Assembly (NCBI RefSeq): GCF_013368755.1
Contig: NC_049562.1
Location: 2,976,001-3,040,000 of the forward strand
DNA: 64,000 bases
Source of the DNA: Talaromyces rugulosus
Taxonomy: Eukaryota > Ascomycota > Eurotiomycetes > Eurotiales > Trichocomaceae
Direction of reading: 5' to 3'
Shown here: piece after piece, positions 27,761 to 62,170 of the stretch
How positions within the stretch are numbered: position 1 is the first letter of the stretch
How the letters are laid out: each line of letters starts with the position of its first letter
Notes under the pieces: model-generated
The model's database searches: none
Seen by the model: only the letters and a program-made list of their open reading frames with translations
Told to the model about the DNA's origin: nothing
Made by a program: the position numbers and the translations under genes

Positions 27761-28114
27761 TGCCAGCAAATTAAAAAAAAAAGGAACAAAAGAGACTTTC
27801 TATTAAAAACCTAAAAGCCGCGCATGTTGCATAAAAAAGATAAAGAACAAAACAAACCTAAACTATCTAGGGATATCTAAACATAAGCTCTGTAGGGTAC
27901 TGTACTAGAATATTAGGATATTTATAAAAAGCTTTGAAGGGCAAGTAAACATATTTTAATTTAGATCTAAAGGCCGTGGCATCGCTATATAAGAAGGAAT
28001 TTTTCAGATATACCCCTGATAGTGGAGGTAGTCACTAAGGGCGTGAGTTGCCTCGTGTACTCTAGCTAGTAGGTGCACAAGTTTGGAATCGAACCTGGCG
28101 CTATAATTACTAAA

Positions 28115-28388
28115 TGTGACGGCTGAGCCTGAGGCTATCCCCAAGGGTAGGAGCGGCCTCATGGCCGGATAGGAGGCCTCAGGCAGGAAGGGCATCAACC
28201 CTAACCCACGGTGCCAGATCTGGGGATAGCCTCACCCCAGGGCCATAAAGGGTCAAGCTGGTTACCTAAGCACATAAGATAAAACCTTCCCACAGATCCT
28301 GGTAATTAGATTCCTTTCCCATACTTATTGTTTTAGAGAATCGCACCCCTAGATAAGAATTGAATATCTTTAGAAAAGGCATATCATA
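28115..28388 (+). repeat. Element B 5' LTR
   Basis: Matches 40710-40983 at equal length. Differences are mostly transitions. Confidence 0.88.
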
Positions 28389-28609
28389 TTACAACAAGCA
28401 TTGCTATACTTTATCTTTATCTTTCTTATAACTAGTACAGCCAGCATTCAGCTATAGTCAGCGCTCTAATTAAGGGTAGACTTTTCTTTATCTTAATCTC
28501 TTTATGTTCAGTACAGTCTGTATAGCTATGATAAATACCTTATCAGTGCTCTAACCCTAAACCTTTATTTATTTTTATTTAAAACCTGGAAATTTTATAA
28601 ATTAGTATA

Positions 28610-29899: not shown

Positions 29900-31931
29900 G
29901 AGAGAAGGATAGCATAACTGTATCTATTCAGCTAGCTAAGAATAGATATTCAATTTATACTAAAGCTTTAGCTAATACTAGAGCCAATAGATTTGTCTTT
30001 TTAGATATATTTTTAACAGAGAAACTTACACAACACTTTCAGACATACACAGTACCCATTTCTGAACCCTATAGAGTGAAAGGGTATAATGGGAAGATAG
30101 TAGAACTAATCACATACCTCATAATCTTAACACTGATTGTTAATAGCTAGATACAGCAGTATCTACTCTTTCTCTTAATATAACTAGGCTGTCATGATGT
30201 TATTTTAGGTCATATATAGCTAGAGAAATATAATATATTAATAGATTACAGAAACTGTTGCCTTTTATAGCCAGAGGATGTGTCTCTCAAAGATTAAATA
30301 GAGAAAGAGTAGTTTATCCACATGCTAAAGATAATACTAAAGAGAAATAGACCAGTTAATCTTGAGTACTAAGCTGATATAGAGCGCCAAGATTAGTTGA
30401 TAAAAGAACCTATCCTATTTCTATAATTAGAATCCCAAAAGAAAGCATCTACAATTATAGAAAAAATACAAAGGATGCAATTAAAGATAGAACTATAGAA
30501 AATAAAAAAAGCCTTATAATTAGAGAATATCACAGGACCCTTTAGCAGTACCAAAGAAGCATTACCAGTTATTAGTCCAATAAGAAATCCACATTATCAA
30601 TACTTAGAAAAAAGAACATATAGAATAGATATAGCAATCATTAGAGCTGTTAGATTCCATTATTATATAAAAAGCAAGACTATAGATATCTTTATAACTA
30701 GTCTTTACAAAATAAAGCAGACATTAGAAACTAAGAAGGAAAAAATAGCTAAGTTAATTAAAAGTAAAAAGATTAAGCAGTAGCTACTAGATTAGTATTA
30801 TAAGTTTATTAATATCTTTTTAAAGATTTACTCAGATAAGTTACCAGTTCACTAGAAGTATAACTATAAGATTGAGTTAAATTAGGACTTAGAGTTAAGT
30901 TATAATCTTTTATATTAAATATTAGAAGAATAGCTCTAAACAGTCTAAGACTATATTATTAATAATCTGGATAAAGGATTTATTATCTTTAGTAATACAC
31001 TATTCATATCTTTAATCCTTATAGTTAAGAAAGCTAATAGCAGATTCTACTTCTATATTAATTACTACAAGCTGAATACTTTAACTAAAAAAAACCAATA
31101 TCTACTATTACTTATTAAGGAAGTCTTTAAGCATTTAAATAAGGCAAAGATCTTTACTAAGCTAGATATTAGGTAGGGGTTCTACTAAATCTAAATACAC
31201 CTAGACTCTATAGATCTAACTACTTTCTATTATCAATATAGCACTTTTAAGTATAAGGTAATGCTATTTAGTCTTATTAATAGATTAGCAATATTTTAAT
31301 AACTAATTAATAATATCTTTATAGACTACCTTAATTAGTTCATAATTGTGTTTATCAACAATCTATTGATATACAGTGAGAATGAGCTAGAGTATAAGAT
31401 ATATATGTAATAGGTGTTAGAGAGACTCTAAGAGATAGGACTGTAAGCTAGTATCAAAAAATATAAGTTCTATATTACATTAACTAAGTATCTAGGCTTT
31501 ATCATTACTTCAGAGGGGATAGAGGTTGACCCAGTAAAGATTGAGGTTATTTTTTCCTAGAAGATATTAATAATAGTTTTAGGAGTATAGTTATTCCTTG
31601 GTTTCTATAACTTCTATTAGAAGTTTATAAAGGCCTATAGCTAAATTATAAGGCCATTATATTACCTCACTCAAACTAATATTCTATTTATATAGAGTAA
31701 AGAGTGCGAAGAAGTATTTAAAAGTCTGAAAAAGAAATTATTAGAAGCCTTGGTGTTAGTCTATTACAACCCTAATTATTAAATCCGCATAGAAATAGAT
31801 GTATTAGATGGAGTAATAGCTACAGTCCTATCTTAACTATATAAAGATAAAGAATAGCATCTAATTATATACTACTCTATATTAATAATCCTAGCTAAAT
31901 ATAATTATAACATCTATAACAAGGAACTAGG
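29900..31931 (+). pseudogene. Element B pol remnant (protease, RT, start of RNase H)
   Basis: A protease-like ALANTRANRFVFLDI is seen at about 29965-30010. RT spans about 30980-31400, where the YxDD box reads FINNLLIYSE (both Asp codons changed to Asn-type by G-to-A). The LGFYNFYRKFIKAYS block follows at about 31590-31640, and the RNase H start (YYNPNYQIRIEIDV) at about 31760-31810. The reading ends abruptly at 31931, where a LINE 3' fragment takes over. Confidence 0.8.
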
Positions 31932-32221: not shown

Positions 32222-32394
32222 TACTATCTAAAAGCTACACACTAAACAAGAAAAAAGTCTAAATATAGATATAGTATTTAGAGTATATATAGGACTATAC
32301 CTATAATAATATTACAGAAGTATAAGGTAAACAGCAATAGCAAGCGAACAAATACAGATAGGAAATAGACTTCAGAGTTAGTGACCATGTCTAT
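32222..32394 (+). pseudogene. Element B pol 3' piece between LINE fragment and element C
   Basis: AT-rich remnant. Its last 50 bases align with 45170-45216 of the related element E, which shows that it belongs to the end of pol. It continues at 40181 after element C. Confidence 0.6.
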
Positions 32395-33051
32395 TGTCAA
32401 TCGGTTCAACAACTCGTCACCAAGATGTGAATCGGGGTGGGTATTCTGCTAACAGAAGACAAGATGAGAACGTTGTGTAAGGCAATCCTAGGATAAGTAG
32501 AGTACTATCGCAATGATAGGCTGCAAAGTATGTTGAAGAGTAATAGTAATATGCTATTTGCTTGAGAGAATAAAACACAATGAGCTAGATACATGATGGT
32601 AAATGAGTGTCCTTATATAGCTGATCCTAAACATAGCGAGCATAGTCGATGCTCTGTTGGCTATGTTGTTGACATATCCAAACATAGTCTGGCTATGTTT
32701 GGCTATGTTCCCTGCATAGTCACGTGCCATGGTGCACTTCCACTGACATGGTGCATGCGCACCGCTGGGGTGCATCCGCACCGGGTGTACTCGCACAGGG
32801 TAGGTGGTTCTGCACTAAGTGTATTTGCACGGAAATGGTGCAGCCGCACCATTTAGGGTGTATGTCCACCTGGTGTGTCTTCACTAAACCAGTGCATCTG
32901 CACTGTCCAGATCACGTGAGTTCTCGTGTAGTCACTTCCGTCTTCGTTCCTACAATTAGCAAGTCTACTCCATAGGAGTTTCAGGCAGCTTGCTTATGTA
33001 AGTAGCGTCCGCTACTTATCGATTGGCTGAGCGTTCACGATTCTTATGACA
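32395..33051 (-). repeat. Element C 3' LTR
   Basis: 657 bp, identical by eye to 39519-40175. Open frames inside it are chance frames repeated in both LTRs. Confidence 0.95.
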
Positions 33052-33166
33052 ATCCCCTCCTTCGAAGGCTGGCGTCCCGACAGTCACATAAATAGTCGCA
33101 GGCCCCCCGTCGCATAGGTAGGCGAATTTCTTTCTTGTTAACATTCTTGGTGGTGATGTTCTGACC

Positions 33167-33721
33167 ATGTCGTCAAAGCAAAACATAAATACGAAAAACC
33201 TTCGGCTGCGTATCGAACAGTCTGGTATTATTCTGCCGATTCCTTGTCATCGTTGTGCAGTCCAAGGGAAGGTTTGCATTAAATCTGAAATTTCGAGTCG
33301 CTGTAGCGAGTGCGTTGGTTTTGGTCGCTGCAAGTGTCGCGATATGGCCTCGTCTGACCTGGCGTGGAAAAAGCTCATCAAGGCTCAAGAGAAGATTGAG
33401 GCCGATGACGATCGGTTGAATGCTGAGCTTGAGGCTCTCCTTGCCAAACGGGCTCGTTTGCATAAACAAAGGAAACTTCTCCGAAAGCGTGCTGGAGAAT
33501 TTATTCAAACGGATATAAAGGATGTGGAGGAGTTGGAGCGTTTGGAGGAAAAGGAGGAGGAGGAACGGAAACGAGAGGCCGAGCTGCAAAAATCAAACGA
33601 GATGATTGCGGCTGCCATCCAGGAGTTTCCCGTGTCGTCTAACAACGAGTTCGACCACGTCCTCTCCGAGTTTCTTTCTGGCGAAACGCTCGAATCTTTT
33701 CGGGGCAGTTCAAGTGCCTAA
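33167..33721 (+). CDS. Antisense ORF of element C: Zn(II)2Cys6-like, coiled-coil protein, unknown function
   Basis: 184 codons on the strand opposite to gag-pol, placed between pol and the 3' LTR and overlapping the pol 3' end tail-to-tail by 83 bp. Cysteines at 27, 30, 37, 46, 49 and 57 give C-x2-C-x6-C-x8-C-x2-C-x7-C, which fits the fungal binuclear zinc cluster consensus; an extra Cys is at 55. Residues about 62-150 are strongly charged and helical (LEALLAKRARLHKQRKLL, then EELERLEEKEEEE), suggesting a coiled coil, with an acidic/hydrophobic end. The frame is fully open and the codon use is ordinary. The start lies 115 bp inside the LTR edge, so an LTR-driven antisense promoter is possible. 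A DNA-binding or regulatory role is inference; no homologue is claimed. Confidence 0.72.
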   Translation: MSSKQNINTKNLRLRIEQSGIILPIPCHRCAVQGKVCIKSEISSRCSECVGFGRCKCRDMASSDLAWKKLIKAQEKIEADDDRLNAELEALLAKRARLHKQRKLLRKRAGEFIQTDIKDVEELERLEEKEEEERKREAELQKSNEMIAAAIQEFPVSSNNEFDHVLSEFLSGETLESFRGSSSA

Positions 33722-36700
33722 CTGGTTCCCATGAGTTGTGTTCCGGTCCGTATCCTTTCCAGCTGACTAAGTAAAAGATTCTTCCTTCCACTAACTTTCT
33801 CTTTAGAATGTTTTCAACTTCATATTCATCCTCGGTTGCTTCGTCGTTACTGTTTTCTGGGTTTTCGGTTGGTTCCAATAATGAGATGTGAAATACTGGG
33901 TGCACTTTCATTCTTGCTGGTAGTCGGAGTTTGTAATTGTCGTTAGCGAGTTTTTCTTGAATTGTGAAAGGTCCGTATTTGATAGCGTCAAGTTTGTTGC
34001 TTGGTCTCTTGCTTGGAATGTTGAATTTTTTCTGTCCAATTGTTCGTCGTAGTAAGTAAACTTTCTCCCCCTTTTTGAGGATTGGCGCGTCCTCGCGCTT
34101 CTTGTCGTAGTAGGTCTTCATTCGGTTTTCAGCCCACTTGATGTCTTTCGATATTGTCTGATGGAGTGCCTGTAGTTTGTTGGCTTGTATTATCGCGGCT
34201 TCGGATAATCCTTCTCGTGGTACTTCAGACCATGTCATTCTTGGGTGTCGTCCAAGATTCGCAAAATGTGGAACTTGTTTTGTCGTAGCGTTTTCTGCAT
34301 TGTTTAATGCGAACTGTGCTAATGGTAGTAGTTCTACCCAATTGTCTTGTTCCCAATCTAAATAGTGTCGAAAATACTGTTCAACTGTTTGAATCATTCT
34401 CTCGGACTGGCCATCAGTCTGTTGGTGATTCGCGGTTGATAACTTGTGATGCATTCCGCATGCCTTTGCAATTGTCTGCCAATATTTGGATGTAAACAAC
34501 TTGTCTCGGTCTGTGATAAGTTCGTTTGGTAATCCGGTCCATACAAAAACTTTTCGTAACATAAGTTTTGCACATTGTTCTGCTGTCATATCCTTTGGTG
34601 TTGGTTCTAAGATAACATATTTCGTAAGTCGGTCGACTGTTATCATGGCATCGGTGTAGGTAATTCCTGTTACTGGGTCCTTGGACTGCGGTAGTCCTTG
34701 GATAAAGTCAACAGTGATACTTTTCCATGCTTCTTCTGGTACTTCCGGTATTTGCATTTTTCCAAAGGGTTTGTGGTGTACTGCTTTGTTTCTGTTGCAT
34801 TCGTCGCAGTTTCTGATGTAATTCTCAACCCTTTTTCGGACATAAGGAAAGTAGAATGTTCGGGTAATCATTTCGATTGTCCTTTCAACTCCTTGGTGTC
34901 CTTTTGTTGGAGGATCGTGGTATCGCTGAATGACTTCCGTAGTCATATTCTGCGGTACTCTGATCATTCCATTCCATATCGCTAAGCCTTTCTGAACATT
35001 TTTCGTAACTTGTCCGGCTTGTAATTCTTCTTGTATTTTTTGATCCTTGTTGGTTTCCCGATACATTCGTTCGTAGAACGGATCATCGTCAACAACTCTT
35101 ATTGCGGTCGCAATGATCGCATTGTGATTGTGGCGTAGAACTCCTGATTCTTCTTGCAGAATGTTTGTCTTGGGGGGTTCTATCCCGATTGCGTAATCTG
35201 GTCGTCTGCTTAATGCGTCTGCTGCTGCATTTTGTTTTCCTGGAATATGTTCAATCCTGTAATTGAATTTGGCTAGTTCTTCGGCCCATCGTATTTGTCT
35301 TCCAGATAATTCTTTTGTTGTCGTGAAGTACTTCAAATTGTGATGATCGCTTTTGACGATTACTTCATGTTTTGCTCCTTGGAGATAGTGCCGCCATTGT
35401 CGAAATGCTTGAACTATCGCGAGTAATTCTCGGTCGTGGACGTCGTAGTTAACTTCCGCCGATGTAAACTTTCTCGAGTAGAATGCGACAATCTGCGTTT
35501 CTCCTTTTTCATTGATTTGTTCATGGATTGCTCCAAGAGCATATCCAGATGCGTCTGTTCGTAGAATGCTTTGTAATTCTGGGTTAAACAGTTGTAATAT
35601 TGGCGCAATTTTAACGAGTTCTTTAACGTTTTCAAAAGATCGTTGTCTTCTTGCTGTCCAATCGAATGGTTCGTCTTTTTTCAGCAATTCTGTCATTGGT
35701 GTTGTAACGTCTGAGTATTTCTCAAGATATCGTCGAACGTATCCGCTGGCTCCAAGAAAAGATTGTACGTCGTGGACGTTCGTTGGAGTTGGCCATTCGA
35801 GGATAGCGTCTAATTTCTCTTTCGGTATTTCTAGTCCGTTTGTTGTATATACCATTCCTAGGTAGTTGACTCGTGTGGTGTCGAATTCACACTTCTTGAT
35901 TTTGAGAGTTAATCCTGCTTCCATGAGTTTTGTCATAACCAGTCGTACATGGTTATCGTGTTCCTTGGGGTCTTTTGAGTAGACTATAACATCATCGAAG
36001 TATACTGCAACGAAGAGGTTAAGGTATTCCCGTAGGATGTGGGTCATAAACCTCGCGAATTCTGCTGGTAGCCGTTTGAGTCCCATAGGCGCTACTAGCC
36101 ATTCGTACAGTCCCAAGTCTGTAAGGAATGCTGTTTTCCAGATGTCGTCATTTTTCATTCGTAGGTTGTAGTATCCCCATTCAACGTCGAACATTGTCAT
36201 GATTTTTGCGCCTTGCAATAAATCTCTCTTCTGTTCCTGGTGTGGTGCTTTGTTTGCGTCGTCTTCGGTCATATTGTTTAATTTTCGGTAGTCGATGACC
36301 ATTCGTGGTGATCCGTCGCGTTTTGGTACAAACATTGCTTGTGCAGAAGCCTTTGCTTTTGATTCTCTGATGTAACCGGCTGCTAAGAATTTCTCAATGA
36401 ATTCCTTAGTAGTTCGGAGTTCATCTTGTGAGATTTGTCGTTGCTTCACTTGTGGTACTTGTGCTCCTTCCTTGAGCGGTATCTCTGCTTCGTATTCTGT
36501 TTCGTGTTGTGGTAGTCGATATTCTTTCTTCACAAATAATTCGGTAAAGTCCCGATATTTTTCTGGTAGCTTGTCGAGCACTTCCTTTAGTTCTTTTTCG
36601 TAGATTTCTTTTGGTTTCTTTCGTGTTTCAATTTGTCGGCCTATTTCGTTTATTTCTTCAGCATGTTTCACCTTCAACTGCTGGTTCGGCTTGATCCCCA

Positions 36701-39449
36701 TCTGCTCTGTTTGCAGCGTTTTCAGGTCTATTGACACCGTCTCGTGTTTCCAGTCAATGACAGGATTATGTTTCCGTAGCCACGTCATTCCGAGTATAAT
36801 GTCGAAATCCTTTCGCTCGAACGGACTTAAATCCAGTTGGATGCTTTCTTCGTGTTCTCCTGATTTGAGTGTGATGTTTCCAGTTCGTCGTACGAATCCT
36901 TCGATCGTGATTTGTCCTTCAAAATTTTGTACAGTATGCCATAGGTTTGTCTCGTGCGTTTGGATCCTGTTTTTCTTGACGTATGCTTCGCTAATGTAGT
37001 TCGTTGATGCTCCCGAGTCGAGGAGTAGTTTGGCTTCGTGTCCGTTGATTGTTCCCTTGATAATGATCACAGTTTCTCCTGTCTTGATAGTTGTGGCAAT
37101 AAGGTGGTGTCCCTTTCTGTGCCTCTCAAGGTATCGTTTCTGTGATAGAACAATTTCGGTCCAGTCTTCATCGGTGTAGATGACTCGTCCTTCGTGGTAT
37201 GGACATTTTTTCGCGTAGCACTGGTCAGTTTCGATGCTATTATGGAAAGGGTGCCAAATTTCTTCTGCGTAGCACCAACATTCGTTCCAGCCCTTCGGGC
37301 AGTCCGGGATGGGTTGATAGATGATCATCGGTGCCGTTGGCTTCCATTTGTTCTTTTCCTTTTCTTCGAGGTGAGTCGGACATTTTGACTCATAGCATTG
37401 CGTCCAGTGTATTTTCTTGTGATGGTGTCCTCCATATTGTGGGTAGTACATGCATGAACATCTTTCGGTATGCCCAAGCATCGGGTGGCACAACCGTGTT
37501 CCTTTGGTGAGTGAGACGTATTCGAATTCGTTTGCGAGTGCGATGTTCTTTTTTCCGTGCATATCGCATTTGTGAAATGTCCACTCGTGGCATTTTTCGC
37601 ATTCGAGGATGTGTTGTCGGTATGTCTGAATAGAGTCTTCCCAACATACTGGTTTGGGTGGTTTGCAACTGCATTCTCGTTTTGGTTCTTCGTAGTCGAT
37701 TTCAGGGAATTCTTCTGTTGTTTCGGAGTCTTCGCTGTCTGTTTTCAGTTCTTCTTTGCTTGTTTCTGGAATCTCAATTTTTATTCCTGGAACCGTCGTG
37801 CTGGTTCCTAGGACTGAATCCCATTCTTTCTTTGTGATTGGTGGTCGTTTCTGGAACAGTCTGATTGTTTCATTTGCTTGGTCGATCGCCCTTGCGGCGT
37901 CTCTTCTGAGGTTTGTTGTTCTTGTTAACTGTGAATGTTGCGGGGTGTCTGATTCTCGATCCGAGTCCTCGTGGTCAACTTCTCTGTCTTTTCCACCGTC
38001 TCGAAACGTCAGGGGGTGTCGGCTTTCACTTCCTGATGAAAGGTCATCAATACGCCGTCCAGCGGTTTTGCTGTATTGGTCTTCTCTGCGAGGTTCTCTG
38101 ATCGGTCCTTTCTCTTGACCTCGTCGTAGGTGAGGTTGCGCTTCTTCCGGGTTAGCGTCTTCTTCCTGGGGTGGTTCCCTTTCTGAACTCTGTCTGAGGC
38201 GTCCCTTAGATTGCCCAGGGCTATCTTCTTGCTCGAATTTCTTGAGCGATTCGTATATTTCCTTTTCTAGTATCGGTCCCCAGAAGTCCTTGACTTCGTC
38301 GACCTGTTCATTTTCTGACTCCTCCTCCTCACTGTCCGAGGGGGTCACAATTGTCTGGTGTATGGCCGCAACTTGTTGATGGACTGTTGTTATTTTTTGA
38401 GGGCTGACGTTACCGTTCTGTTTGTTTTGCCCTGATCGACACTGTCGTGCAAAGTGTCCTTTTCGTCCGCACTTGTAACAAGCTTTGTTTTCCTTGCGCT
38501 TGGCCATTTCTTCCTTACTGATCACGTTGTTGAGCTGCATCTTGACATCGCCGTCCTTGTCGTATTGGGTTCCTCGCTTTGCCGATGTGTTGGCATACTG
38601 AGGGAATCCTCCAACTTTCTTCCATCTCTGAAACTCCTGTCGCTTCTGTTTGATCTCGAACAGTTTGTTGTCAATCTTGACCGCCATCTCAATGAATCTG
38701 TCAATGTTGTCGGGTCGGTCGAGTTTGATGAGTTCCGTCTGGACTTCTTCCTTGAGCATGTTCTCAAAGGTTGCGATTTGAATAGCATCATCATAGTGTA
38801 GTGGTGTTACTATCTGTCGGAATTTGGTTGCCAACTGCTGAGCGGATCCGGTCTGTCGTAGGTATCTTAGTTGTCTTTCCGCGGTCCGTAGCTCGTCGAT
38901 GTTTCCGAACGCTTCTCCAAGTTTCTGTTTGAACATGCCGTAGTTCGAAAACAGTTCCCTGGTGATAGTCCCCCAACTACTTCTGTCGGTAGTGTACAAT
39001 TCACTTAGCATGGGTTGTATCCATTCTGCTGCTGCATCGGTAAAGCATGATGCCACAAAGATCATTTTCTTTTTGTCATGGGTGATCTGGTTGGCTTCGA
39101 TATGCATTTCCATGTTGACCAAAAATGTCTTCAACTTAGATCTAGTTCCGTCGAAGGTCATGGGTTTTGGTAGTTTGACCCTGTTGCCGGCTGTTCCAGC
39201 TTCGCCAGGTGGTATAGCCATGACTTGAGCTTCGAGTTGGTTGACATGATCGTCTCTTTCAGCGATTGCAGCTTGCAGTCTTTGAATGTGTTCATTCATT
39301 TGATCGATGACTCTTTCCAACGTGGTGAATCTTTGCTGGGTTTGCTCGTCGGGTTCATCGTCACTGTCTTGATCGACTGGTCTTGCTTGTCTTGCAGGTG
39401 GGCGCGGAGTTGCCGGTCCTGCTGCTGGTGCATTGCTATTTCCTGCCAT
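33639..39449 (-). CDS. Element C gag-pol polyprotein (1936 aa, single frame)
   Basis: Start ATG at 39449, 69 bp inside the LTR. Domains by residue: gag with coiled coil 40-80; CCHC knuckle CYKCGRKGHFARQC 324-337; acidic linker 360-590; a Cys/His-rich module 593-755 (16 Cys); aspartic protease LLDSGAS at 809-815; RT about 1000-1200 with YFDD 1150-1153; RNase H about 1295-1420; integrase zinc finger ending CDEC at 1548-1551; integrase core with D1581, D1647 and E1683 (DD35E); C-terminal chromodomain 1875-1920 (YLVSWKGYGPEHNSWEP). All catalytic residues are present, so the protein looks functional. gag and pol are fused without a frameshift, so the Gag:Pol ratio must be set another way. The chromodomain suggests targeting to methylated H3K9 heterochromatin. 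Confidence 0.95.
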   Translation of the reverse strand: MAGNSNAPAAGPATPRPPARQARPVDQDSDDEPDEQTQQRFTTLERVIDQMNEHIQRLQAAIAERDDHVNQLEAQVMAIPPGEAGTAGNRVKLPKPMTFDGTRSKLKTFLVNMEMHIEANQITHDKKKMIFVASCFTDAAAEWIQPMLSELYTTDRSSWGTITRELFSNYGMFKQKLGEAFGNIDELRTAERQLRYLRQTGSAQQLATKFRQIVTPLHYDDAIQIATFENMLKEEVQTELIKLDRPDNIDRFIEMAVKIDNKLFEIKQKRQEFQRWKKVGGFPQYANTSAKRGTQYDKDGDVKMQLNNVISKEEMAKRKENKACYKCGRKGHFARQCRSGQNKQNGNVSPQKITTVHQQVAAIHQTIVTPSDSEEEESENEQVDEVKDFWGPILEKEIYESLKKFEQEDSPGQSKGRLRQSSEREPPQEEDANPEEAQPHLRRGQEKGPIREPRREDQYSKTAGRRIDDLSSGSESRHPLTFRDGGKDREVDHEDSDRESDTPQHSQLTRTTNLRRDAARAIDQANETIRLFQKRPPITKKEWDSVLGTSTTVPGIKIEIPETSKEELKTDSEDSETTEEFPEIDYEEPKRECSCKPPKPVCWEDSIQTYRQHILECEKCHEWTFHKCDMHGKKNIALANEFEYVSLTKGTRLCHPMLGHTERCSCMYYPQYGGHHHKKIHWTQCYESKCPTHLEEKEKNKWKPTAPMIIYQPIPDCPKGWNECWCYAEEIWHPFHNSIETDQCYAKKCPYHEGRVIYTDEDWTEIVLSQKRYLERHRKGHHLIATTIKTGETVIIIKGTINGHEAKLLLDSGASTNYISEAYVKKNRIQTHETNLWHTVQNFEGQITIEGFVRRTGNITLKSGEHEESIQLDLSPFERKDFDIILGMTWLRKHNPVIDWKHETVSIDLKTLQTEQMGIKPNQQLKVKHAEEINEIGRQIETRKKPKEIYEKELKEVLDKLPEKYRDFTELFVKKEYRLPQHETEYEAEIPLKEGAQVPQVKQRQISQDELRTTKEFIEKFLAAGYIRESKAKASAQAMFVPKRDGSPRMVIDYRKLNNMTEDDANKAPHQEQKRDLLQGAKIMTMFDVEWGYYNLRMKNDDIWKTAFLTDLGLYEWLVAPMGLKRLPAEFARFMTHILREYLNLFVAVYFDDVIVYSKDPKEHDNHVRLVMTKLMEAGLTLKIKKCEFDTTRVNYLGMVYTTNGLEIPKEKLDAILEWPTPTNVHDVQSFLGASGYVRRYLEKYSDVTTPMTELLKKDEPFDWTARRQRSFENVKELVKIAPILQLFNPELQSILRTDASGYALGAIHEQINEKGETQIVAFYSRKFTSAEVNYDVHDRELLAIVQAFRQWRHYLQGAKHEVIVKSDHHNLKYFTTTKELSGRQIRWAEELAKFNYRIEHIPGKQNAAADALSRRPDYAIGIEPPKTNILQEESGVLRHNHNAIIATAIRVVDDDPFYERMYRETNKDQKIQEELQAGQVTKNVQKGLAIWNGMIRVPQNMTTEVIQRYHDPPTKGHQGVERTIEMITRTFYFPYVRKRVENYIRNCDECNRNKAVHHKPFGKMQIPEVPEEAWKSITVDFIQGLPQSKDPVTGITYTDAMITVDRLTKYVILEPTPKDMTAEQCAKLMLRKVFVWTGLPNELITDRDKLFTSKYWQTIAKACGMHHKLSTANHQQTDGQSERMIQTVEQYFRHYLDWEQDNWVELLPLAQFALNNAENATTKQVPHFANLGRHPRMTWSEVPREGLSEAAIIQANKLQALHQTISKDIKWAENRMKTYYDKKREDAPILKKGEKVYLLRRTIGQKKFNIPSKRPSNKLDAIKYGPFTIQEKLANDNYKLRLPARMKVHPVFHISLLEPTENPENSNDEATEDEYEVENILKRKLVEGRIFYLVSWKGYGPEHNSWEPVRHLNCPEKIRAFRQKETRRGRGRTRC

Positions 39450-39509
39450 GATTAGCTCGTTAGTAAGGTTTGATTGCTTACCTAGTTCTCAAAACTTCGT
39501 GTTATGAGG

Positions 39510-39518
39510 GTGTTTTAT
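39510..39518 (-). promoter_or_regulatory. Element C primer-binding site, probable self-priming type
   Basis: Directly abuts the 5' LTR. Read on the minus strand it is ATAAAACAC, the reverse complement of GTGTTTTAT, which the LTR transcript would contain at 39702-39694. The same ATAAAACA follows the LTR of element F. This resembles Tf1-type priming by the 5' end of the mRNA rather than by a tRNA. Nine to ten paired bases only, so moderate support. Confidence 0.5.
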
Positions 39519-39736
39519 TGTCAATCGGTTCAACAACTCGTCACCAAGATGTGAATCGGGGTGGGTATTCTGCTAACAGAAGACAAGATGAGAACGTTGT
39601 GTAAGGCAATCCTAGGATAAGTAGAGTACTATCGCAATGATAGGCTGCAAAGTATGTTGAAGAGTAATAGTAATATGCTATTTGCTTGAGAGAATAAAAC
39701 ACAATGAGCTAGATACATGATGGTAAATGAGTGTCC

Positions 39737-39743
39737 TTATATA
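39737..39743 (-). promoter_or_regulatory. TATA box of element C LTR
   Basis: TATATAA on the minus strand. It lies about 35 bp before position 39702, where the self-priming complement begins, so a start site there would have normal TATA spacing. The same box is in the 3' LTR at 32613-32619. Confidence 0.6.
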
Positions 39744-39854
39744 GCTGATCCTAAACATAGCGAGCATAGTCGATGCTCTGTTGGCTATGTTGTTGACATA
39801 TCCAAACATAGTCTGGCTATGTTTGGCTATGTTCCCTGCATAGTCACGTGCCAT

Positions 39855-40034
39855 GGTGCACTTCCACTGACATGGTGCATGCGCACCGCTGGGGTGCATC
39901 CGCACCGGGTGTACTCGCACAGGGTAGGTGGTTCTGCACTAAGTGTATTTGCACGGAAATGGTGCAGCCGCACCATTTAGGGTGTATGTCCACCTGGTGT
40001 GTCTTCACTAAACCAGTGCATCTGCACTGTCCAG
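39855..40034. repeat. U3 array of short degenerate palindromes, GTGCA...TGCAC type
   Basis: About ten imperfect copies of a 14-16 bp dyad (for example GGTGCATCCGCACC, GTGCATGCGCAC, GTGCATCTGCAC, GTGTATTTGCAC) at roughly 16-20 bp spacing, upstream of the TATA box. The same array is in the other LTR at 32731-32910. A neighbouring block (39754-39845) has seven CATAG/CTATG pentamers. These look like clustered binding sites for a dimeric regulator. Confidence 0.7.
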
Positions 40035-40180
40035 ATCACGTGAGTTCTCGTGTAGTCACTTCCGTCTTCGTTCCTACAATTAGCAAGTCTACTCCATAGG
40101 AGTTTCAGGCAGCTTGCTTATGTAAGTAGCGTCCGCTACTTATCGATTGGCTGAGCGTTCACGATTCTTATGACATCTAT

Positions 40181-40709
40181 GTCAGTAACAAAGGATAGGA
40201 TATAGAATAACTAGACAGGAAGCTAAGCTATTAGTCTAAAGAGCTATATAAGATACTATATAAGATAAGATATATCTTTGAATTAGATTTGCTATAAAGT
40301 ATATAAGTATACTATATCTTTTCTTTAAACAAGCTCTATTACATTACTTTAACCAAGCCTCTCACTAATTAACTAGAGAAAGAATATCCTAAGCTTTAGA
40401 TTAACAGAAATTTAAAATAGAAAGTTAATAAAATCCTAGACTCCTAGATACACTAGAAAAAGCTATACTATTAAGTAAACTAGCTAGACAGGGATTTAGA
40501 TCTAGTATAGTATCCAGCAGAGTACTTTTCGAACGCTCTACTAACGCTAAAATCGTTCTATAATACCAACCCCGAAAAGCCAGGTCCACCGCGCTAATTG
40601 GATACATGGATAAAAGCTATAGAGAAGAATCAATTTATTGAAGAATATACAGATAATAACAGACTAATAACCAATGCTTGAGAGCAAGCATTTCCAAAGG
40701 GGGGGATGA
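40181..40709 (+). pseudogene. Element B pol C-terminus (integrase end, chromodomain-like) and PPT
   Basis: Continues B after element C. The reading includes YPAEYFSNALLTLKSFYNTNPEKPGPPR, shown here only in part: the motif YFSNALLTLKSFYN and NPEKPGPP near 40520-40600, typical of the end of chromodomain gypsy pol. A polypurine tract and the 3' LTR follow. Confidence 0.65.
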
Positions 40710-40983
40710 TATGACAGCTAAGCCTAAAGCTATTCCTAAGGATAGAAGCAGCCTTATGGCTGGATAGAAAGCCTCAGGCAGGAAGGGCATCAACCTTAAC
40801 CCGCAGTGCCAGATCTGGGGATAGCCTCACCCCAGGGCCATAAGGGGTCAAGCTGGTTACCTAAGCACACAAGATAAAACCTTCCCACAGGTCCTGGTAG
40901 TTAGATTCCTTTCCCATGCTTGTTGTTTTAGAGAATCGCACCCCTAGATAGGAATCGAATATCTTTGGAAAAGGCACGTCACA
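40710..40983 (+). repeat. Element B 3' LTR
   Basis: 274 bp, same length as the 5' copy. Ends CACGTCACA followed by the CTAAA duplication. Confidence 0.88.
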
Positions 40984-41296
40984 CTAAAGGGTTCCCTGTA
41001 ATCAGGGGTGGGTAATCTGTGCTGTATGTAGAGCGATATAGTTAGCCTATATAGGGCAGTAATACCTAATATGGGGCTGCTGAAGGGGGCAGAGTATTGG
41101 CTCATAAACTGCTGGGTAGTAGCTGGAAGATCTGTTGTTATAATGGTGGGCGAATTACTCTGCGTCGCTATAGTAAGAGCAGAACTACCTATATTGGTTA
41201 AGAGCTTAGCTGAATGAGGATTAGATCAATAATATATCACCATGTCCAATGCCTTGATGGTATTCTTCTAACTGGCAGTATGGGTTACTATTAGTT

Positions 41297-42825: not shown

Positions 42826-44340
42826 ATTAATAATAGTTTTAAGATCATAGTTATTCTTTAGTTTCTATAATTTTTATTAGAAGTTTATAAAGATCTATAG
42901 CTAAACTATAAGATTATTATATTATCTTATTTAAATTAATATTTTATTTATATAAAATAAAGAATATAAAAAAATATTTAAAAATTTAAAAAAGAAATTA
43001 TTAAAAGCTCTAATACTAATTTATTATAATTTTAATTATTAAATCTATATAGAAATAGATATATTAAATAAAATAATAGCTATAATCCTATTTTAACTAT
43101 ATAAAGATAAAGAATAGTATTTAGTTATATATTATTTAGTATTAATAATTTTAACTAAGTATAATTATAATATCTATAATAAAAAATTATTAGCAGTAAT
43201 AAAGACTTTAAAAAAATAAAAATCTTTTAATATTCTATTAGATTATTAAATTTTTAAATACTTTATAATTACTAAAGCTTTAAATATCTAATAAACTTAA
43301 TAATATAAGTTTTTAAAAAAATACTACTTTATATTTAAATACTAATTAAAAAAATAAATATATTAGTAGACATCCTTACTTAAAAAGAAAATAAAAAAAT
43401 AAAAAATCTTAATTATTAAAACTAGATCTTATTACTATAATATAAAATTAATAATAAGATTATATTTAAAATAGTATATATAGAACTGGTCACTCTAACT
43501 ATAAAGAATAATATTATTATTAAGATATTAGCAGCTAATAAAGAATATATTATAAAGAAAAACATTAAAATCTTATTTTTAAAGAAAAAGAAGAGTTATA
43601 GAGTAATTAAAAAATAATTTTTCTTTAATAAATAACTTTATATTTCTAAGAAAAATGATTTACAAGTATAATTACTAGATAAAGTATATTAATAATCTAT
43701 AATAGTATATTTAGAATATATAAAGATACTAAAGCTAATCTAAAAATAATTCTACTAAGAAATATAGAGTAATAATATAAATTAATATATAAATAATTAT
43801 AAAATATATAAAAAGATAAATATATATAGAAATAAGATTTTTAAACTTTTTTAATTACTATTAATCTCAGCATAATTTTAATAATATTTATTAATAGATT
43901 TTATAGAACTGCTCTAGAATAAATAAAGATTTAATAATATTTTTGTTACTATCAACTATTTAATTAAAAAATTAGTTTCTATATTATACTATAAAAGGAT
44001 GATAGCTAGAGATATAAATAAAGTTATAGATTTAATATATTTTTCTATAAATAGATCTATTAGATAGTATTATATTAGATTAAAAAGACTAGTTTATTTT
44101 TAAGGTTTAAAAAAAGGCATACTAAATTCTTTATATTAAAATAAAATTATTAATAGTATAGTATATCTAGATAGATAGATAAATAAAGATAGTAAATTAA
44201 AAGTTTTAGTAATAATTATAGCTATATATTAATTTTATAATAAATAACTAGTTAGAATATTTATTAATTATTAACTTTATAGCTATATTATTATTATAGA
44301 AATCTATAGAAATATTTTTTTTTAAAATAGATAAAAAATA
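42826..44340 (+). pseudogene. Element E pol remnant (RT end, RNase H, integrase)
   Basis: Dense TAA/TAG codons. The start parallels B's LGFYNFYRKFIKAYS region. It retains the about 1 kb of RNase H/integrase sequence (about 43185-44220) that is absent from element B. Confidence 0.7.
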
Positions 44341-45593: not shown

Positions 45594-48500
45594 TTACTCC
45601 CCCCCTTCGGCAAGGGCGTTGTGGTGTTGGAGCCAGTGGTCGAGTGCTTCGGTGTCTTCCATGGACCGGGCAGGTTCCCATGTAGGTCGCGCATATCCGG
45701 TCCAACGGACAAGGTATTGCTTCATATGTCCGCGGCCCCGACGTATGGTCCGTTCGTCGAGTATGCTATCGACTAGGTACTCTTCATTGCCTTCTACTAG
45801 GTGCGCTGGTGGCTGGTAATCGTGTCGGGTCTGTGAAGGGAGCGGACGTGTGCCCGCAGGGCGGAGGAGCGTCGTATGAAAAACATCATGAATAGTTCCG
45901 GGGACATCGAGTCGGTACGCATGGGATCCCACTTTCTCTAGTATAGTATATTTCGCATGTCGGGCGTCCAGCTTCTTCGAAGGTCGTTCGGTCCGAATGT
46001 TCCGAAGGTCTAACCATACCTTCTGTCCTACTTTATACTCCAGAGGAGTCTCTCGGCGACGGTTCGCACTATCTTCCATTCGCTGCTGCGCTGAGACAAG
46101 CTCAGTCTGCGCTATATCAAAGGCCTGCCGTAGCTTAGTAACTATATCGTTTGCACGTTCGGCGGCGGGTCTTTGCTGCTCAGATGTGGGGATAGCTTCA
46201 TCTAACTGGAGTGGTTCGACGTTGTATCCATGGGTCAGGAAGAAGGGGCTGATACCAGTTGCAGTAGCGTCGCGCCCGTTTATTGCGAGTTGCGCAATTG
46301 CGGTTAGTGGGCTCCAGTCGGTTTGGAGGTAGGTACAGAAGTTCCGCAGGTATTCTTCCACCACAGAGTTAGCACGTTCCGTCTGTCCATCAGTTTGGGG
46401 GTGATGCGCGGTTGACAATCGTCTCATGATCTTTAGACGTTCGCACACGCCTTTCCAAAGGTCATTAACAAATTGCGTGCCCCGATCCGATATAATGCTG
46501 CTAGGCGGCCCATGTTCGCGTATGAATCGGTCAACGAACTTCGATATCACTGTCTCAGTATCTATGTGTTTGCATGGTACCAATATAATCCCTTTTCCCA
46601 GTCGGTCAACGATTACCATGAGATTCGTATTCCCGTCGGACATTGGGAGTTTCTCTATAAAATCCATACTAATATCTCGCCACATTCGCGAGGGAACAGG
46701 GAGCGGTTTTAATAACCCTTGTCGGCGTTGTCTCCATACGGTGTTCGCACCACATTTGTCGCAGTTATTCACGAACCTTCGGACATCCTCAGATAGGTTC
46801 GGCCAATATAGTTGTCGGGCCACGATGGCATAGGTCATGTTTCGGCCTGGGTGTCCGGTGAGATAGGAGTCGTGCGTATCTTGTATAATACGAGTGCGGA
46901 GTGGTTCGCTGTTTGGTACCCATTGTCGGTTTCGAAATAGTAACCGGTCCGCTGCATCGATCGTGCATTCGGATACCATGGTGCGAAGTTGTAGGTCTTG
47001 AGGGAACCGCGGGAGCTTCTGGCGTACGGCCTCTTTGATTCGTTCATAATTCTTATCCTCGGCTTCGGCTAGTCGCCACTGTTCTCCAATTGACGTTAAG
47101 TGCTCTATGTGGGTAGCGTGGACATGGGGTTCAGGTGCGGTGTTCGATAAGCGACCCTGGGGAGGTTGTTCTGGATAGTCTCTCCGTACCTTGTTAGGGT
47201 TGATAAGACGCTTATTTCGGTATGCTAGGCGTTCATCGTCAATCCCATCGGGCATATCTTGCGAGCGTCGCGATAGTGCATCAGGTCTGGCAGCTAGTCG
47301 CCCTGGCCGGTATTGGAGCTTATAGTTGAAGCGTGAGAGTATACCGGCCCATCTCATTTGCCTTTCATTCAACCGTCGGAGCTGCATGAAGTATTTAAGA
47401 TTCCGGTGGTCGGTCAGGATAGTAAACTCCTTAGTGCCAATTAGTTCAGGTTCCCATTGCTTCAGACACGCTATTATCGCCAATAGCTCCTTATCGTGGA
47501 TCTCGTAATTGCACTCCGCGGGCGTGCACTTTCGGGAGAAGTAGGCGCAGGTTCGTAGGAGTCCTTTGTTATCGTACTGTGATAATGTCCCCCCTACGAC
47601 ATATCCCGAAGAGTCGGCTTCCACGATTGTATCCTGCTCGGGGTCGAATTGCACTAGTATTGGGTCGCTCACAAACATTTGCTTTAGTTGTTCGAAGGCT
47701 TCATTGGCGGCCTTGGTCCAAACGAAGGTAGTTCCCTTTTTAGTCAGTTCTGTCAGCGGACGGATTATGTCGGAATACCCTCGGATAAACTGTCGGTAGA
47801 AATTTGCGAACCCTAGGAACGATCGCACGTCTTTCACACACGTTGGGGCTTTCCATTCCAAAATGGCAGAGACTTTCGCGGGGTCCATTCGGATCCCTTT
47901 TCCAGCTTCTAATATGAATCCGAGGTATTTTGTTGTCTGCACCTCGAACTCGCATTTATTGATATCTAGCTGTAGTCCCGCAGTGCGCAGGCGTTCTAGC
48001 ACCCTCATTACCTGTTTCCGATGGTGCGCGCGGCTGCCTTCCGTAAAGATAAGCACGTCGTCCAGATAGGCAGATACAAAGTCGTCCAGGAACTCGCGAA
48101 GGGTCCAATTGATGTATCGTTGAAACGTGCTCGGCGCATTGGTAAGGCCGAAAGGTGTTACTAACCATTCATAGAGTCCAAACCTGGTTCGGAAAGCTGT
48201 CTTCCACTCGTCTCCTTCGGCGATGCGTATCTTATGGAAGGCCGCTGTAACGTCAAGCTTTGTAAACCATCGGGCTTTAGATATTCGTTGTAGGGTCTCA
48301 TGTATTAACGGTAGTGGATATCGGTCCCTTTTTGTCATAGCGTTGAGCGCCCGATAATCGACGCAGAAGCGCAGTCCTCCTCCGGGTTTCCTTACAAACA
48401 GTACCGGCGCTGCAGCGGGCGAGTTGCTCACACGTATGAAGTCCTTCGACAGTAAGTCGTGGAGAGTTTTCCGTAGGACCAGCAGTTCTTCCCGTGACAT

Positions 48501-49208
48501 GTTATAGAGAGGGCCCCATGGTATCTCTGGCTTGCGCCCCTTCGCGTCGGCGTCAATTAGTTCAATCTGATGGTCGATATTCGGACGTGACGGTGGTAGC
48601 TTGTCAGCTTCCTTCGGGTCAAATAGTTCCAGGAACTCGTGGTAATGCTTAGGTAGCTTGTTCCCTGGGTCTGTCTGTGGTTTCGGGGCCAGAGCTTTCT
48701 CAATATCCCGCATGGAGACTGCAAATATGTCGACCTCCTTTTTCCTGCTTCGCATCCTTTTCAAAGCGTTCACCGCAGCTGCACCGATCTGTCGGGGGGC
48801 GTACTCAGGTCGTAACAGGTTCTTTTTATCGACGGATATTCCGTTCCCGAATTCCAGTCGGCCTCCAGCGGCGTCAATTCTTACATGTTGGTGTTCCATC
48901 CATGGGAGACCCAATATCATATCGTATTCGCACTTCGGAACCACATAGAAGTAGGCTTTCTCCTGTATATTTCCCCCGATATCTAATGTCACGCATGCAA
49001 TTTCTTTGATGTATTGAGGTGCCGAACCATCATATCCCTTAATAGGTCGAGGTTTAATAGCGCTACAATTCAGCTTTTTCTTTCGAGCGAAGGTCTCTTT
49101 GATGATCCCATAGGTGAGGCACCCACTATCAATTAAAGCATTGGCATTGGTTCTACGGTCTAACCATGCGTCTATATTGAATGGGGGTCCGTCAAACCTT
49201 CCAACCAT
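45594..49208 (-). CDS. Element D pol (protease, RT, RNase H, integrase, chromodomain; 1204 aa from first ATG)
   Basis: Protease DSG at residues 27-29; RT about 210-440 with YLDD 381-384; RNase H beginning EADSSGYVVGG (about 531); integrase zinc finger ending CDKC 816-819; integrase core D849, D908, E944 (DD35E spacing); chromodomain 1143-1196 (YLVDSIL, QYLVRWTGYARPTWEPA). All key acidic residues are intact. The frame stays open upstream of the ATG at 49208 and past the gag stop, in the -1 frame relative to gag, so pol is probably made by -1 frameshifting. Near the gag end the sequence TCAAAAGAGTAG offers a weak slippery site. The final codons (EGGE, stop) encode the polypurine tract and abut the LTR. 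Confidence 0.95.
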   Translation of the reverse strand: MVGRFDGPPFNIDAWLDRRTNANALIDSGCLTYGIIKETFARKKKLNCSAIKPRPIKGYDGSAPQYIKEIACVTLDIGGNIQEKAYFYVVPKCEYDMILGLPWMEHQHVRIDAAGGRLEFGNGISVDKKNLLRPEYAPRQIGAAAVNALKRMRSRKKEVDIFAVSMRDIEKALAPKPQTDPGNKLPKHYHEFLELFDPKEADKLPPSRPNIDHQIELIDADAKGRKPEIPWGPLYNMSREELLVLRKTLHDLLSKDFIRVSNSPAAAPVLFVRKPGGGLRFCVDYRALNAMTKRDRYPLPLIHETLQRISKARWFTKLDVTAAFHKIRIAEGDEWKTAFRTRFGLYEWLVTPFGLTNAPSTFQRYINWTLREFLDDFVSAYLDDVLIFTEGSRAHHRKQVMRVLERLRTAGLQLDINKCEFEVQTTKYLGFILEAGKGIRMDPAKVSAILEWKAPTCVKDVRSFLGFANFYRQFIRGYSDIIRPLTELTKKGTTFVWTKAANEAFEQLKQMFVSDPILVQFDPEQDTIVEADSSGYVVGGTLSQYDNKGLLRTCAYFSRKCTPAECNYEIHDKELLAIIACLKQWEPELIGTKEFTILTDHRNLKYFMQLRRLNERQMRWAGILSRFNYKLQYRPGRLAARPDALSRRSQDMPDGIDDERLAYRNKRLINPNKVRRDYPEQPPQGRLSNTAPEPHVHATHIEHLTSIGEQWRLAEAEDKNYERIKEAVRQKLPRFPQDLQLRTMVSECTIDAADRLLFRNRQWVPNSEPLRTRIIQDTHDSYLTGHPGRNMTYAIVARQLYWPNLSEDVRRFVNNCDKCGANTVWRQRRQGLLKPLPVPSRMWRDISMDFIEKLPMSDGNTNLMVIVDRLGKGIILVPCKHIDTETVISKFVDRFIREHGPPSSIISDRGTQFVNDLWKGVCERLKIMRRLSTAHHPQTDGQTERANSVVEEYLRNFCTYLQTDWSPLTAIAQLAINGRDATATGISPFFLTHGYNVEPLQLDEAIPTSEQQRPAAERANDIVTKLRQAFDIAQTELVSAQQRMEDSANRRRETPLEYKVGQKVWLDLRNIRTERPSKKLDARHAKYTILEKVGSHAYRLDVPGTIHDVFHTTLLRPAGTRPLPSQTRHDYQPPAHLVEGNEEYLVDSILDERTIRRGRGHMKQYLVRWTGYARPTWEPARSMEDTEALDHWLQHHNALAEGGE

Positions 49209-49276
49209 CTTCTTAAAATTCTCGAAGTCACGAGCTGTTTTGCATTTTGGCTCCTGCGGGCGACTTTGCGCAGGAG

Positions 49277-50389
49277 CTACTCTTTTGACTCTGATGTGCT
49301 ATCTGAGCCTGTATCAGATTCGGTTTCATTCTCCTTTACTCCGGTGTTGGATATTCTCGTGAACGTATCGTGTTTCTTCTTGCCACGGTTCCTCGGAGAT
49401 GGCGCCCGACGGAGCGGCGCAGGTTCGGGGCAGTATTGGGCAATATGACCCGGTTTTCCGCATCGAAAACAGTTGTCCGTTCTGACAGTATTAATTGGCA
49501 GGCCCGCAGGTGTCCAGTCCATGACTTGGGGCTGTCCTCTGTCGGGGGAGGTTCCTTTTGTGAGCGGACGGGAAGTGTTCCGCTTGTATCGGGACTGGAT
49601 GTTGTCAATCCTTTTCAGCTCTTCAAGGTCGTTCGCTACTCGGTGTAAGCGTTCGCAGAAAGCTTCGTACTGCTTCGGCATGTCGCTCCCGACAGTCGCA
49701 CGCCTCATTTCTTGGTTAATCGCGGTTTTCAGTCGTGAGATTTTTACGTCGTCGGTCCATGATTGACCTCCTGCAAGAAGTAATATCCGTTCAAATTCGC
49801 TGATAAAGTCCTGGAAAGGGGTGCGCCCCTGTCGTATACGGTTAAGTTCAAGGTTCGCCTTCTCCACAAGTTGATGATCTTCGAACAGCACGTTAAGGTG
49901 CGCAAAGAAAGCTTCTAGTGTAGCGGGGGTGACCGTATTTACGTTCCCATGAAGCCGCATCCAGGGGTAGACCTTCGTCTGGGCCTTTCCTGCCAACCGT
50001 CCATAGGCGTACCACAGTTGCTCGTACGGTCCTCCGATCGCTGGTGCATCGACCGTCAATTTTGCATATAGGATTGCCACGAACTGCATATATCGTGAAC
50101 GATCAGAGTCGTCATATTTATCGGGATGGTCAAGGGAGTGGCGCGGTTTGTTCGCACTGTACATAGGGGTTACCGATGGTGTGGCATCAGTAGGGACCTC
50201 GGGCATAGGTGGTTCGGTCGTATTGTTAACTTGTCCTTCGACATGCGATAGGCGAGCGGACATATTCGTCAGAAGGAGTTCCATTCGTTGCATTTGTTCC
50301 AATAACAGCTGGTTCGGTTCCAAAGGTATGCCCCTTCGGTCCGGGCCGTCCCTCGGTGGGCTATTCGTCATAATGGGGAAATTTCTCAA
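49277..50389 (-). CDS. Element D gag (nucleocapsid with CCHC knuckle, 370 aa)
   Basis: Capsid-type gag with a coiled-coil start (LLEQMQRMELLLTNMSARL), a central Ty3-type capsid region (FFAHLNVLFEDHQLVEKANL) and the zinc knuckle CFRCGKPGHIAQYC at 307-320. The C-terminus is Ser/Glu-rich. An alternative start is Met7 (50371). It ends 68 bp before the first pol ATG. Confidence 0.93.
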   Translation of the reverse strand: MRNFPIMTNSPPRDGPDRRGIPLEPNQLLLEQMQRMELLLTNMSARLSHVEGQVNNTTEPPMPEVPTDATPSVTPMYSANKPRHSLDHPDKYDDSDRSRYMQFVAILYAKLTVDAPAIGGPYEQLWYAYGRLAGKAQTKVYPWMRLHGNVNTVTPATLEAFFAHLNVLFEDHQLVEKANLELNRIRQGRTPFQDFISEFERILLLAGGQSWTDDVKISRLKTAINQEMRRATVGSDMPKQYEAFCERLHRVANDLEELKRIDNIQSRYKRNTSRPLTKGTSPDRGQPQVMDWTPAGLPINTVRTDNCFRCGKPGHIAQYCPEPAPLRRAPSPRNRGKKKHDTFTRISNTGVKENETESDTGSDSTSESKE

Positions 50390-61800: not shown

Positions 61801-62170
61801 AGAGGCTCTTTCTATCCTATTAAAGCTATGTTCCTATAGTCTCTTCCCTAGAGTTTTAAATGCTTCCTGGGAGCCTGGCATGCTGTTTAGAGAGAGAAAC
61901 AACTCCCTAGGATTGATTTCCAGGCTAGACAAGAAGTCCTCACTCTGAAGGACTGTTACACTTGCCTCAGAGGGCGCTGGTAGTACTGTCTCCACTGGGG
62001 TGCCTATATAGGCCCCTACGGGGTTCACCAGACCTAGCGCCTGCCCCCCTGGGTCTAGGGGGTGGTTGTCGATATTGGGGAGTCCAGGGGCCATAGCGAA
62101 GCCCTGGATGCCTTCCAGTAGCATTGAATTTCAAAAGGTTGATTTTTGATTTTCCCGGCGGGTAGTTATG
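55876..62170 (-). mobile_element. LINE copy 3: near full-length non-LTR retrotransposon, RIP-mutated
   Basis: About 6.3 kb, minus strand, A/T-rich tail at the left. Order from the 5' end: ORF1 beginning at 62124; endonuclease motif GDFNAYSPSWNP near 59715-59790; RT box YANDIGLVA near 58035-58065 (YADD with one Asp lost); RNase H and CX2CX8HX4C end at about 56150-57180; then the conserved 3' UTR. The domain order ORF1, APE endonuclease, RT, RNase H fits the I/Tad-type clades, tentatively Tad1-like. Many TAG/TAA codons make it inactive. The 5' edge at about 62170 is judged from the composition change. Confidence 0.82.
61834..62124 (-). pseudogene. LINE copy 3 ORF1, N-terminal open part
   Basis: 96 open codons starting MLLEGIQGFAMAPGLPN at the expected 5' end of the LINE. 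Minus-strand reading continues with stops to about 60300, with Cys-rich zinc-knuckle-like sequence near 60600-60760. Confidence 0.55.

Follow-up and report, generated by a model that had tools for sequence, protein, structure and literature searches.

A zinc-cluster-like antisense gene and a candidate target array in a Ty3/gypsy retrotransposon of Talaromyces rugulosus

Introduction

What does a gene do that lies inside an intact retrotransposon, on the strand opposite to gag-pol? The question is raised by a Ty3/gypsy element in a 64,000-nucleotide stretch of the Talaromyces rugulosus genome (contig NC_049562.1, positions 2,976,001 to 3,040,000; hereafter the window), for which an earlier note had proposed an antisense DNA-binding regulator of the element's own, perhaps acting on its long terminal repeats (LTRs). 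Our analysis suggests, with a probability that we put at about 0.6, that the element codes for a zinc-cluster transcription factor of its own, which would act on an array of sites in its LTR and likely activate gag-pol.

The antisense frame is a coding gene of an intact element

The antisense open reading frame (ORF) and its host element comprise the following features.

33167..33721, plus strand: antisense ORF of type A, candidate zinc-cluster-like regulator, 184 aa, ATG to TAA
32395-40175, minus strand: intact Ty3/gypsy chromovirus with LTRs, target-site duplication and gag-pol
32395..33051, minus strand: 3' LTR (in the sense of gag-pol), 657 bp
39519..40175, minus strand: 5' LTR, 657 bp, no difference from the 3' LTR
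32390..32394 (left) and 40176..40180 (right), no strand: 5-bp target-site duplication TCTAT
33639..39449, minus strand: gag-pol of chromovirus-type Ty3/gypsy, one frame of 1936 aa
33639..33721, no strand: convergent overlap of 83 bp between the end of the antisense ORF and the end of gag-pol (end of the chromodomain)

The LTRs, the target duplication, the order of gag, protease, reverse transcriptase, RNase H and integrase, and the chromodomain are those of a Ty3/gypsy chromovirus, and the identical LTRs, the duplication and the single gag-pol frame bear out the claim that the element is intact. The gag-pol protein matched profiles for capsid, protease, reverse transcriptase, RNase H, integrase and chromodomain; the integrase zinc-binding and SH3 models scored over the cut-off and the integrase core model itself under it. 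The 184-codon frame described in the earlier note is present on the strand opposite to gag-pol. It had been placed between pol and the 3' LTR, which is correct for most of its length, its last 83 bp lying within the end of gag-pol.

Among the 120 matches listed for the MPP10 protein of the window, the best from a named species was that of Talaromyces islandicus (86% identical), which points to the genus Talaromyces. We searched the T. rugulosus genome (35.76 Mb, 6 contigs) for copies of this ORF. Three types of the element are distinguished below: type A is that of the window, type B comprises L021-L026 (compared in detail using L022), and type C comprises the decayed loci L037-L041, L040 weakly. 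The ORF had 25 DNA matches, 11 identical (type A), six of type B and eight decayed, and its reading frame was open in 17 of them. A protein search matched 48 places, among which the stop-free ones were the same 17. The frame is thus open in all young copies, and not broken at random by stops as the earlier note had envisaged for a spurious one. Since the 11 ORFs of type A do not differ in DNA, nor the six of type B in protein, the young copies alone are uninformative on selection.

The comparison between types is informative. In the 105 codons that could be aligned within the first 112, types A and B differ at 82% of synonymous sites (pS) and 22% of nonsynonymous sites (pN), with an excess of differences at third positions. 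The first 112 codons carry 110 substitutions and both frames are open, an outcome seen in 498 of 20,000 trials of a random-mutation null. The low pN relative to pS, which the earlier note had asked after in the form of dN/dS, and the third-position excess show that selection acts on the protein. Relatives of the protein numbered 28 in a single-sequence search and 133 in a profile search. Among the matches listed, they came from metagenomes and from named genomes of Aspergillus, Penicillium, Talaromyces, Lasallia, Fusarium and Camillea, so that all named relatives are fungal and spread over several genera of Pezizomycotina; none was confirmed in the viral_contigs set. The antisense ORF is a genuine coding gene: the family of homologs, the open frames and a pN far below pS rule out a chance, noncoding ORF.

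The protein resembles fungal zinc-cluster factors

Three parts of the protein can be told apart.

33245..33337, plus strand: six-cysteine cluster, C27-C57, from the cysteine pattern and the predicted fold
33356..33622, plus strand: predicted long helix or coiled coil, residues 64-152, from AlphaFold
33548..33718, plus strand: acidic C-terminal tail with F/L clusters, residues 128-184, from composition

Cysteines 27, 30, 37, 46, 49 and 57 give exactly the spacing that had been reported, C-x2-C-x6-C-x8-C-x2-C-x7-C; a seventh, Cys 55, is less conserved. The Zn2Cys6 family (PF00172) has the spacing C-x2-C-x6-C-x(5-12)-C-x2-C-x(6-8)-C, which the ORF fits. We aligned 77 members, i.e., the window protein, that of L022, and 75 of 120 listed relatives, hand-picked with longer ones favoured. 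All six cysteines are kept in 72 of the 77, and PF00172 was the commonest family matched at E<=0.1 (11 of 77 members, best E 0.001). AlphaFold, run with the 77 sequences, gave a mean predicted local distance difference test score (pLDDT) of 83, rising to about 90 around the cysteines, and placed a short helix at each of the two CxxC pairs followed by a single helix over residues 64-152, where a coiled-coil region had been suspected. Every Foldseek match was a Zn2Cys6 protein or a complex containing one, none of them significant at such a small domain size. Superposition of the domain only gave root-mean-square deviations of 2.0-2.1 with Gal4, Ppr1 and one Pho7 entry, and of 3.8 with a second Pho7 entry. 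Pfam scores are weak; the cysteine spacing, the predicted fold and the coiled coil that follows agree. We call the protein zinc-cluster-like, in keeping with the character first ascribed to it, and predict that it binds DNA.

The coiled-coil segment is 60 residues long in 39 of the 77 members and 67 in 31, a difference of seven residues, or one heptad. A net acidic tail is found in 75 of the 77, with F, W and L interspersed among D and E, a composition that resembles activation domains. The window protein shares 95% of its coiled coil and 33% of its tail with P0003, and 84% of its tail and 38% of its zinc part with P0006. Among 2926 pairs, 13 had a zinc part at least 70% alike and a tail below 50%, and two were the other way round, with 85% or more in the tail and below 60% in the zinc part. 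Some homologs differ in that parts of the protein have been swapped.

The LTR carries an array of candidate target sites

The U3 region of each LTR contains a compact array, lying between two putative core promoters.

32732..32903, no strand: array of ten GTG-N6-CAC sites in U3 of the 3' LTR
39856..40027, no strand: the same ten-site array in the 5' LTR
32611..32620 (3' LTR) and 39735-39744 (5' LTR), minus strand: TATA box CTATATAAGG of the sense promoter, motif by eye
33087..33095, plus strand: TATA-like CATAAATAG, 80 bp 5' of the antisense ATG and identical in type B, motif by eye
33041..33166, no strand: island flanked by both type-specific blocks, with the LTR end, the polypurine tract and the putative antisense core promoter
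39506..39518, minus strand: primer-binding region, self-priming-like, with a 9-nt complement within the LTR at 39694-39702

The sites of the 3' LTR start at 32732, 32751, 32770, 32785, 32804, 32819, 32838, 32858, 32873 and 32892, i.e., at spacings of 19, 19, 15, 19, 15, 19, 20, 15 and 19. Against these ten sites, the best count for any triplet and gap was four, both in 300 shuffles and in 37 pieces of gag-pol, and GTG-N6-CAC occurs once in the window outside both LTRs. Across the whole genome we counted 152 adjacent pairs matching GTGYANNNGCAC-N(3-8)-GTGN6CAC, compared with one for a control pattern; 25 near-identical type A LTRs with six pairs each would account for 150 of the 152, and among the 100 pair matches listed a single one (on C4) lay outside these LTRs. 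Adjacent sites that fit the search pattern are thus nearly confined to type A LTRs, and there is no obvious host regulon.

The array lies upstream of the sense TATA box at a distance of 111 bp, and 183 bp separate its other end from the TATA-like motif before the antisense ATG. The position of the sense start is supported by the primer-binding region, which lacks the initial TGG and is complementary over 9 nt to the LTR about 30 bp past the TATA box; this suggests self-priming of the kind known for Tf1. Four decayed type A copies (L019, L020, L027 and L028) align along the entire array with 0.3-0.7% transversions and 13-28% transitions. They retain 1, 3, 2 and 0 strict sites respectively, and their shared array origin rests on the alignments.

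A reading of the sites as CGG triplets was rejected: the top triplet pair in type A is GTG/CAC, and none is prominent in type B (maximum 3, shuffles at most 3). A general count of palindromes exceeded the shuffles in neither type, the lag test did not exceed them in type A, in which spacings alternate between 15 and 19-20, and a run of Tandem Repeats Finder did not report the array. Families of near-matching 12-mers reached 11 in type A and 10 in type B, beating all 300 shuffles (maxima 10 and 9), and at most 9 in the gag-pol pieces. CACGTG E-boxes occur on both sides of the type A array (32721 and 32913), and type B has one (L022:1097).

Two blocks vary by element type

The gag-pol regions of types A and B are about 98% identical (pS 0.071, pN 0.008). 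The two types have the same ORF tail, most of R-U5 in common (about 97%) and an island (33041-33166) that is 93% identical, whereas their U3 cannot be aligned and the block encoding the zinc cluster and coiled coil has diverged. In the place of the type A sites, the type B U3 has nine units with the core YCGTAYGG at an exact spacing of 17 bp; its lag-17 identity of 0.41 is above that of all shuffles (0.353). Type C is unlike both A and B in both blocks.

The composition of most decayed copies resembles that left by repeat-induced point mutation (RIP), and we therefore compared transversions only. Between types A and B these amount to 0.1% in pol, 22-26% in U3 and 19-20% in the zinc/coiled-coil block; within a type they are mostly 0-1%. 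From this contrast, A and B amount in essence to a single element in which two blocks come in two versions each. We kept the exceptions out of the argument: pol of L027 (15%) and L034 (24%) and U3 of L029 (27%), which look truncated or replaced, as well as pol of L037 (3.9%), the tail of L028 (7.2%), U3 of L035 (2.0%) and U3 of L030 (7.7%, and 1% in a second alignment). Conservation of the island is not a general feature: it holds between A and B (transversions 0-3.8%) and fails in type C (18% in L039, the sole C locus matched there). Low GC content (18-27%) and high TpA/ApT, typical of RIP, are seen in L020, L029-L031, L033 and L035-L039, and not in the window element or L022.

The types of the array and of the zinc block agree in all 17 young copies. 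A wider test on 24 loci gave 17 matched (5 A, 7 B and 5 C), three mismatched and four unassignable (L029, L031, L032 and L042). The pairing of array and protein is strong but imperfect.

A proposed self-encoded activator and its alternatives

On our preferred reading, the antisense ORF would give rise to a small zinc-cluster transcription factor belonging to the retrotransposon. Once expressed, the factor would dimerise through its coiled coil and bind about ten palindromic sites in U3, between the sense core promoter and the putative antisense core promoter. Its acidic tail would most likely activate gag-pol and, from the 3' LTR, the antisense gene itself, giving the element a private, self-reinforcing switch. 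An array between two core promoters is the layout of GAL1-GAL10, and the site of Ppr1 is CGG-N6-CCG, inverted triplets spaced by six; the sites of the array fit this inverted-triplet geometry of the zinc-cluster family. We prefer activation over repression because of the acidic tails and of the distance between the array and the core promoter. The zinc/coiled-coil block, which would set the binding specificity, and the candidate target array occur in three or more versions, carried by backbones that are closely related, and they recombine as modules. Of the regulator originally proposed, the conserved coding gene holds and a candidate target in U3 can be named; binding is predicted. More tentatively, these elements may evolve in the manner of temperate phages, with one gag-pol backbone and interchangeable regulator-operator specificities that competition between types in one genome keeps diverse and template switching shuffles.

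Several results weigh against this reading. A Pfam scan of the ORF itself left PF00172 unmatched and gave nothing above the cut-off, and in three relatives (seven proteins scanned) PF00172 scored 11.6-13.8 bits, under the cut-off of 21. In Gal4, CGG is described as contacted by two lysines (K17 and K18) between the second and third cysteines (PMC4245848). The equivalent residues are Q/G in type A, S/G in type B and of many kinds across the homologs, a variability that type-specific binding would predict. With Q and G where Gal4 has its lysines, the target of the window ORF cannot be deduced from known cases. As for the arrays, one of the 37 gag-pol pieces reached a lag identity of 0.396 at another lag, near the 0.41 of array B, and the type C array is suggestive at most: its value at lag 21 surpasses every one of the 300 shuffles in L038 and in L039, and does not in L037.

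The pairing is also affected. Three decayed copies (L043, L044 and L046) combine array A with zinc block B. They refute a perfect co-inheritance of array and domain, and the strict matching of regulator and sites expected of an immunity-type cassette is broken by these hybrids, the remainder being matched. The hybrids lie on three contigs and have common breakpoints (B to ~32715, A over 32720-33037, B from 33103, with single odd sites), so that a single recombination gave a B element the A array, and this product multiplied. Restricted to old A and B copies, the association is weak (4/3/0/6, Fisher p = 0.07, with non-independent copies), and linkage accounts for part of the pairing, array and gene lying within 1 kb. 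As the factor would act in trans, the hybrid could have been driven by type A elements sharing its nucleus. Two points keep their strength: variation affects exactly these two blocks, and the array is moved as one piece.

The main rival is repression with type immunity: a self-encoded repressor would act at the same sites to control copy number, and a newcomer with another array would escape it. The old A/B divergence, held in two blocks on a near-uniform backbone, does look like diversity kept by selection, and the multiplied hybrid of array A and protein B would be an escape recombinant. We nevertheless consider this rather unlikely, given that all but two of the 77 homologs have a net acidic tail and that the array stays clear of the core promoter, with 111 bp between it and the sense TATA box downstream. 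It is improbable, too, that the arrays are enhancers for host factors, travelling with the gene by linkage, and that the protein acts otherwise (on chromatin, nuclear import or integration). The occurrence of array/protein hybrids and the E-boxes beside the type A array would suit such enhancers; adjacent site pairs are, however, nearly restricted to type A LTRs, and it is precisely the two blocks that are type-specific, with the intervening island conserved between A and B. An effect of the antisense RNA rather than the protein, through double-stranded RNA silencing of gag-pol, is very improbable: antisense RNAs of retroelements are described as possibly working in this way (PMC7264820), but a pN well below pS with a third-position excess indicates selection on the protein, whose relatives are conserved in several genera of Pezizomycotina. 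Finally, a spurious ORF or passenger fragment of a host gene, to which the lack of a Pfam match above the cut-off might point, is hardly conceivable for a family of 133 proteins with conserved cysteines and purifying selection that is found in three element types.

Other repeats in the window

Further repeats surround the element. At 45594-50371 on the minus strand lies another gypsy-like element, in which gag (364 aa) and pol (1204 aa) are separate frames, and an RNase H-type ORF at 62948-63970, also on the minus strand, resembles a remnant of a Tad-like long interspersed nuclear element (LINE); both were recognised by eye. The segments 54513-54620 and 62169-62653 are respectively 73% and 69% identical to portions of the element's gag-pol region. 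Two pairs of repeats stand astride the element: 28114-28391 with 40709-40986 (89%) and 31566-31865 with 42826-43125 (81%).

Relation to known systems

HBZ of human T-cell leukaemia virus (HTLV) type 1 and viral transactivators offer a parallel, with an antisense gene near the 3' LTR that encodes a regulator with a dimerisation helix. The window ORF has the same placement and a predicted dimerisation helix; the proteins are unrelated, and here a candidate LTR array is visible in the sequence. In the immunity regions of lambdoid phages, a specificity protein and its sites vary by type on a common backbone. Unlike these, the present system is a retroelement, and its pairing is not strict. With Gal4, Ppr1, Put3, Pho7 and Leu3 the protein shares the six-cysteine spacing and a predicted coiled coil after the cluster, and its predicted fold may be the same. 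It differs from fungal Zn2Cys6 factors in having only 184 aa, in being encoded by a retrotransposon and in lacking a Pfam match; arrays of GTG/CAC or YCGTAYGG replace CGG, and the positions of Gal4 K17/K18 are not lysine.

An antisense promoter in the 3' LTR is described for HTLV (PMC7264820). Plants, and among fungal elements Boty with its gene brtn, are described as having ORFs in antisense orientation between pol and the 3' LTR (PMC7264820, PMC8365987). With these, and with relatives of our ORF in several named genera of Pezizomycotina, the earlier view that such genes are rare outside a few plant and animal cases is not supported. The window ORF resembles the aORF-3R genes (maize Grande gene23, rice RIRE2, Silene Retand TRP28 and Botrytis Boty brtn), which lie antisense between pol and the 3' LTR, are kept in most copies and are suspected of a nuclear or regulatory role (PMC7264820, PMC11963269); for Retand TRP28, DNA binding has been suggested (PMC11963269). 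Like them, it is an antisense coding frame at the junction of pol and the 3' LTR in most copies (17 of 25 open). Unlike them, the window element has a zinc-cluster-like domain, an array of candidate sites in its LTR and alternative domain/array modules, the comparison with Boty brtn being by description. A literature search, mainly at the level of titles and abstracts, found no account of an antisense zinc-cluster gene within a gypsy element of a fungus, nor of an LTR array to match it or of alternative types of module in such elements. Antisense accessory ORFs are already known, and it is the apparent arrangement of zinc cluster and array for which we found no report.

The function of antisense genes in LTR retrotransposons is an open question. 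Here, a single element brings together a candidate protein, the DNA that it may target and natural variants of each, which turns it into a direct question of binding and reporter assays. If our reading is true, these elements carry their own transcription factor and would not wait for host factors. Their types may then exclude or exploit one another, which would bear on how families burst and replace each other.
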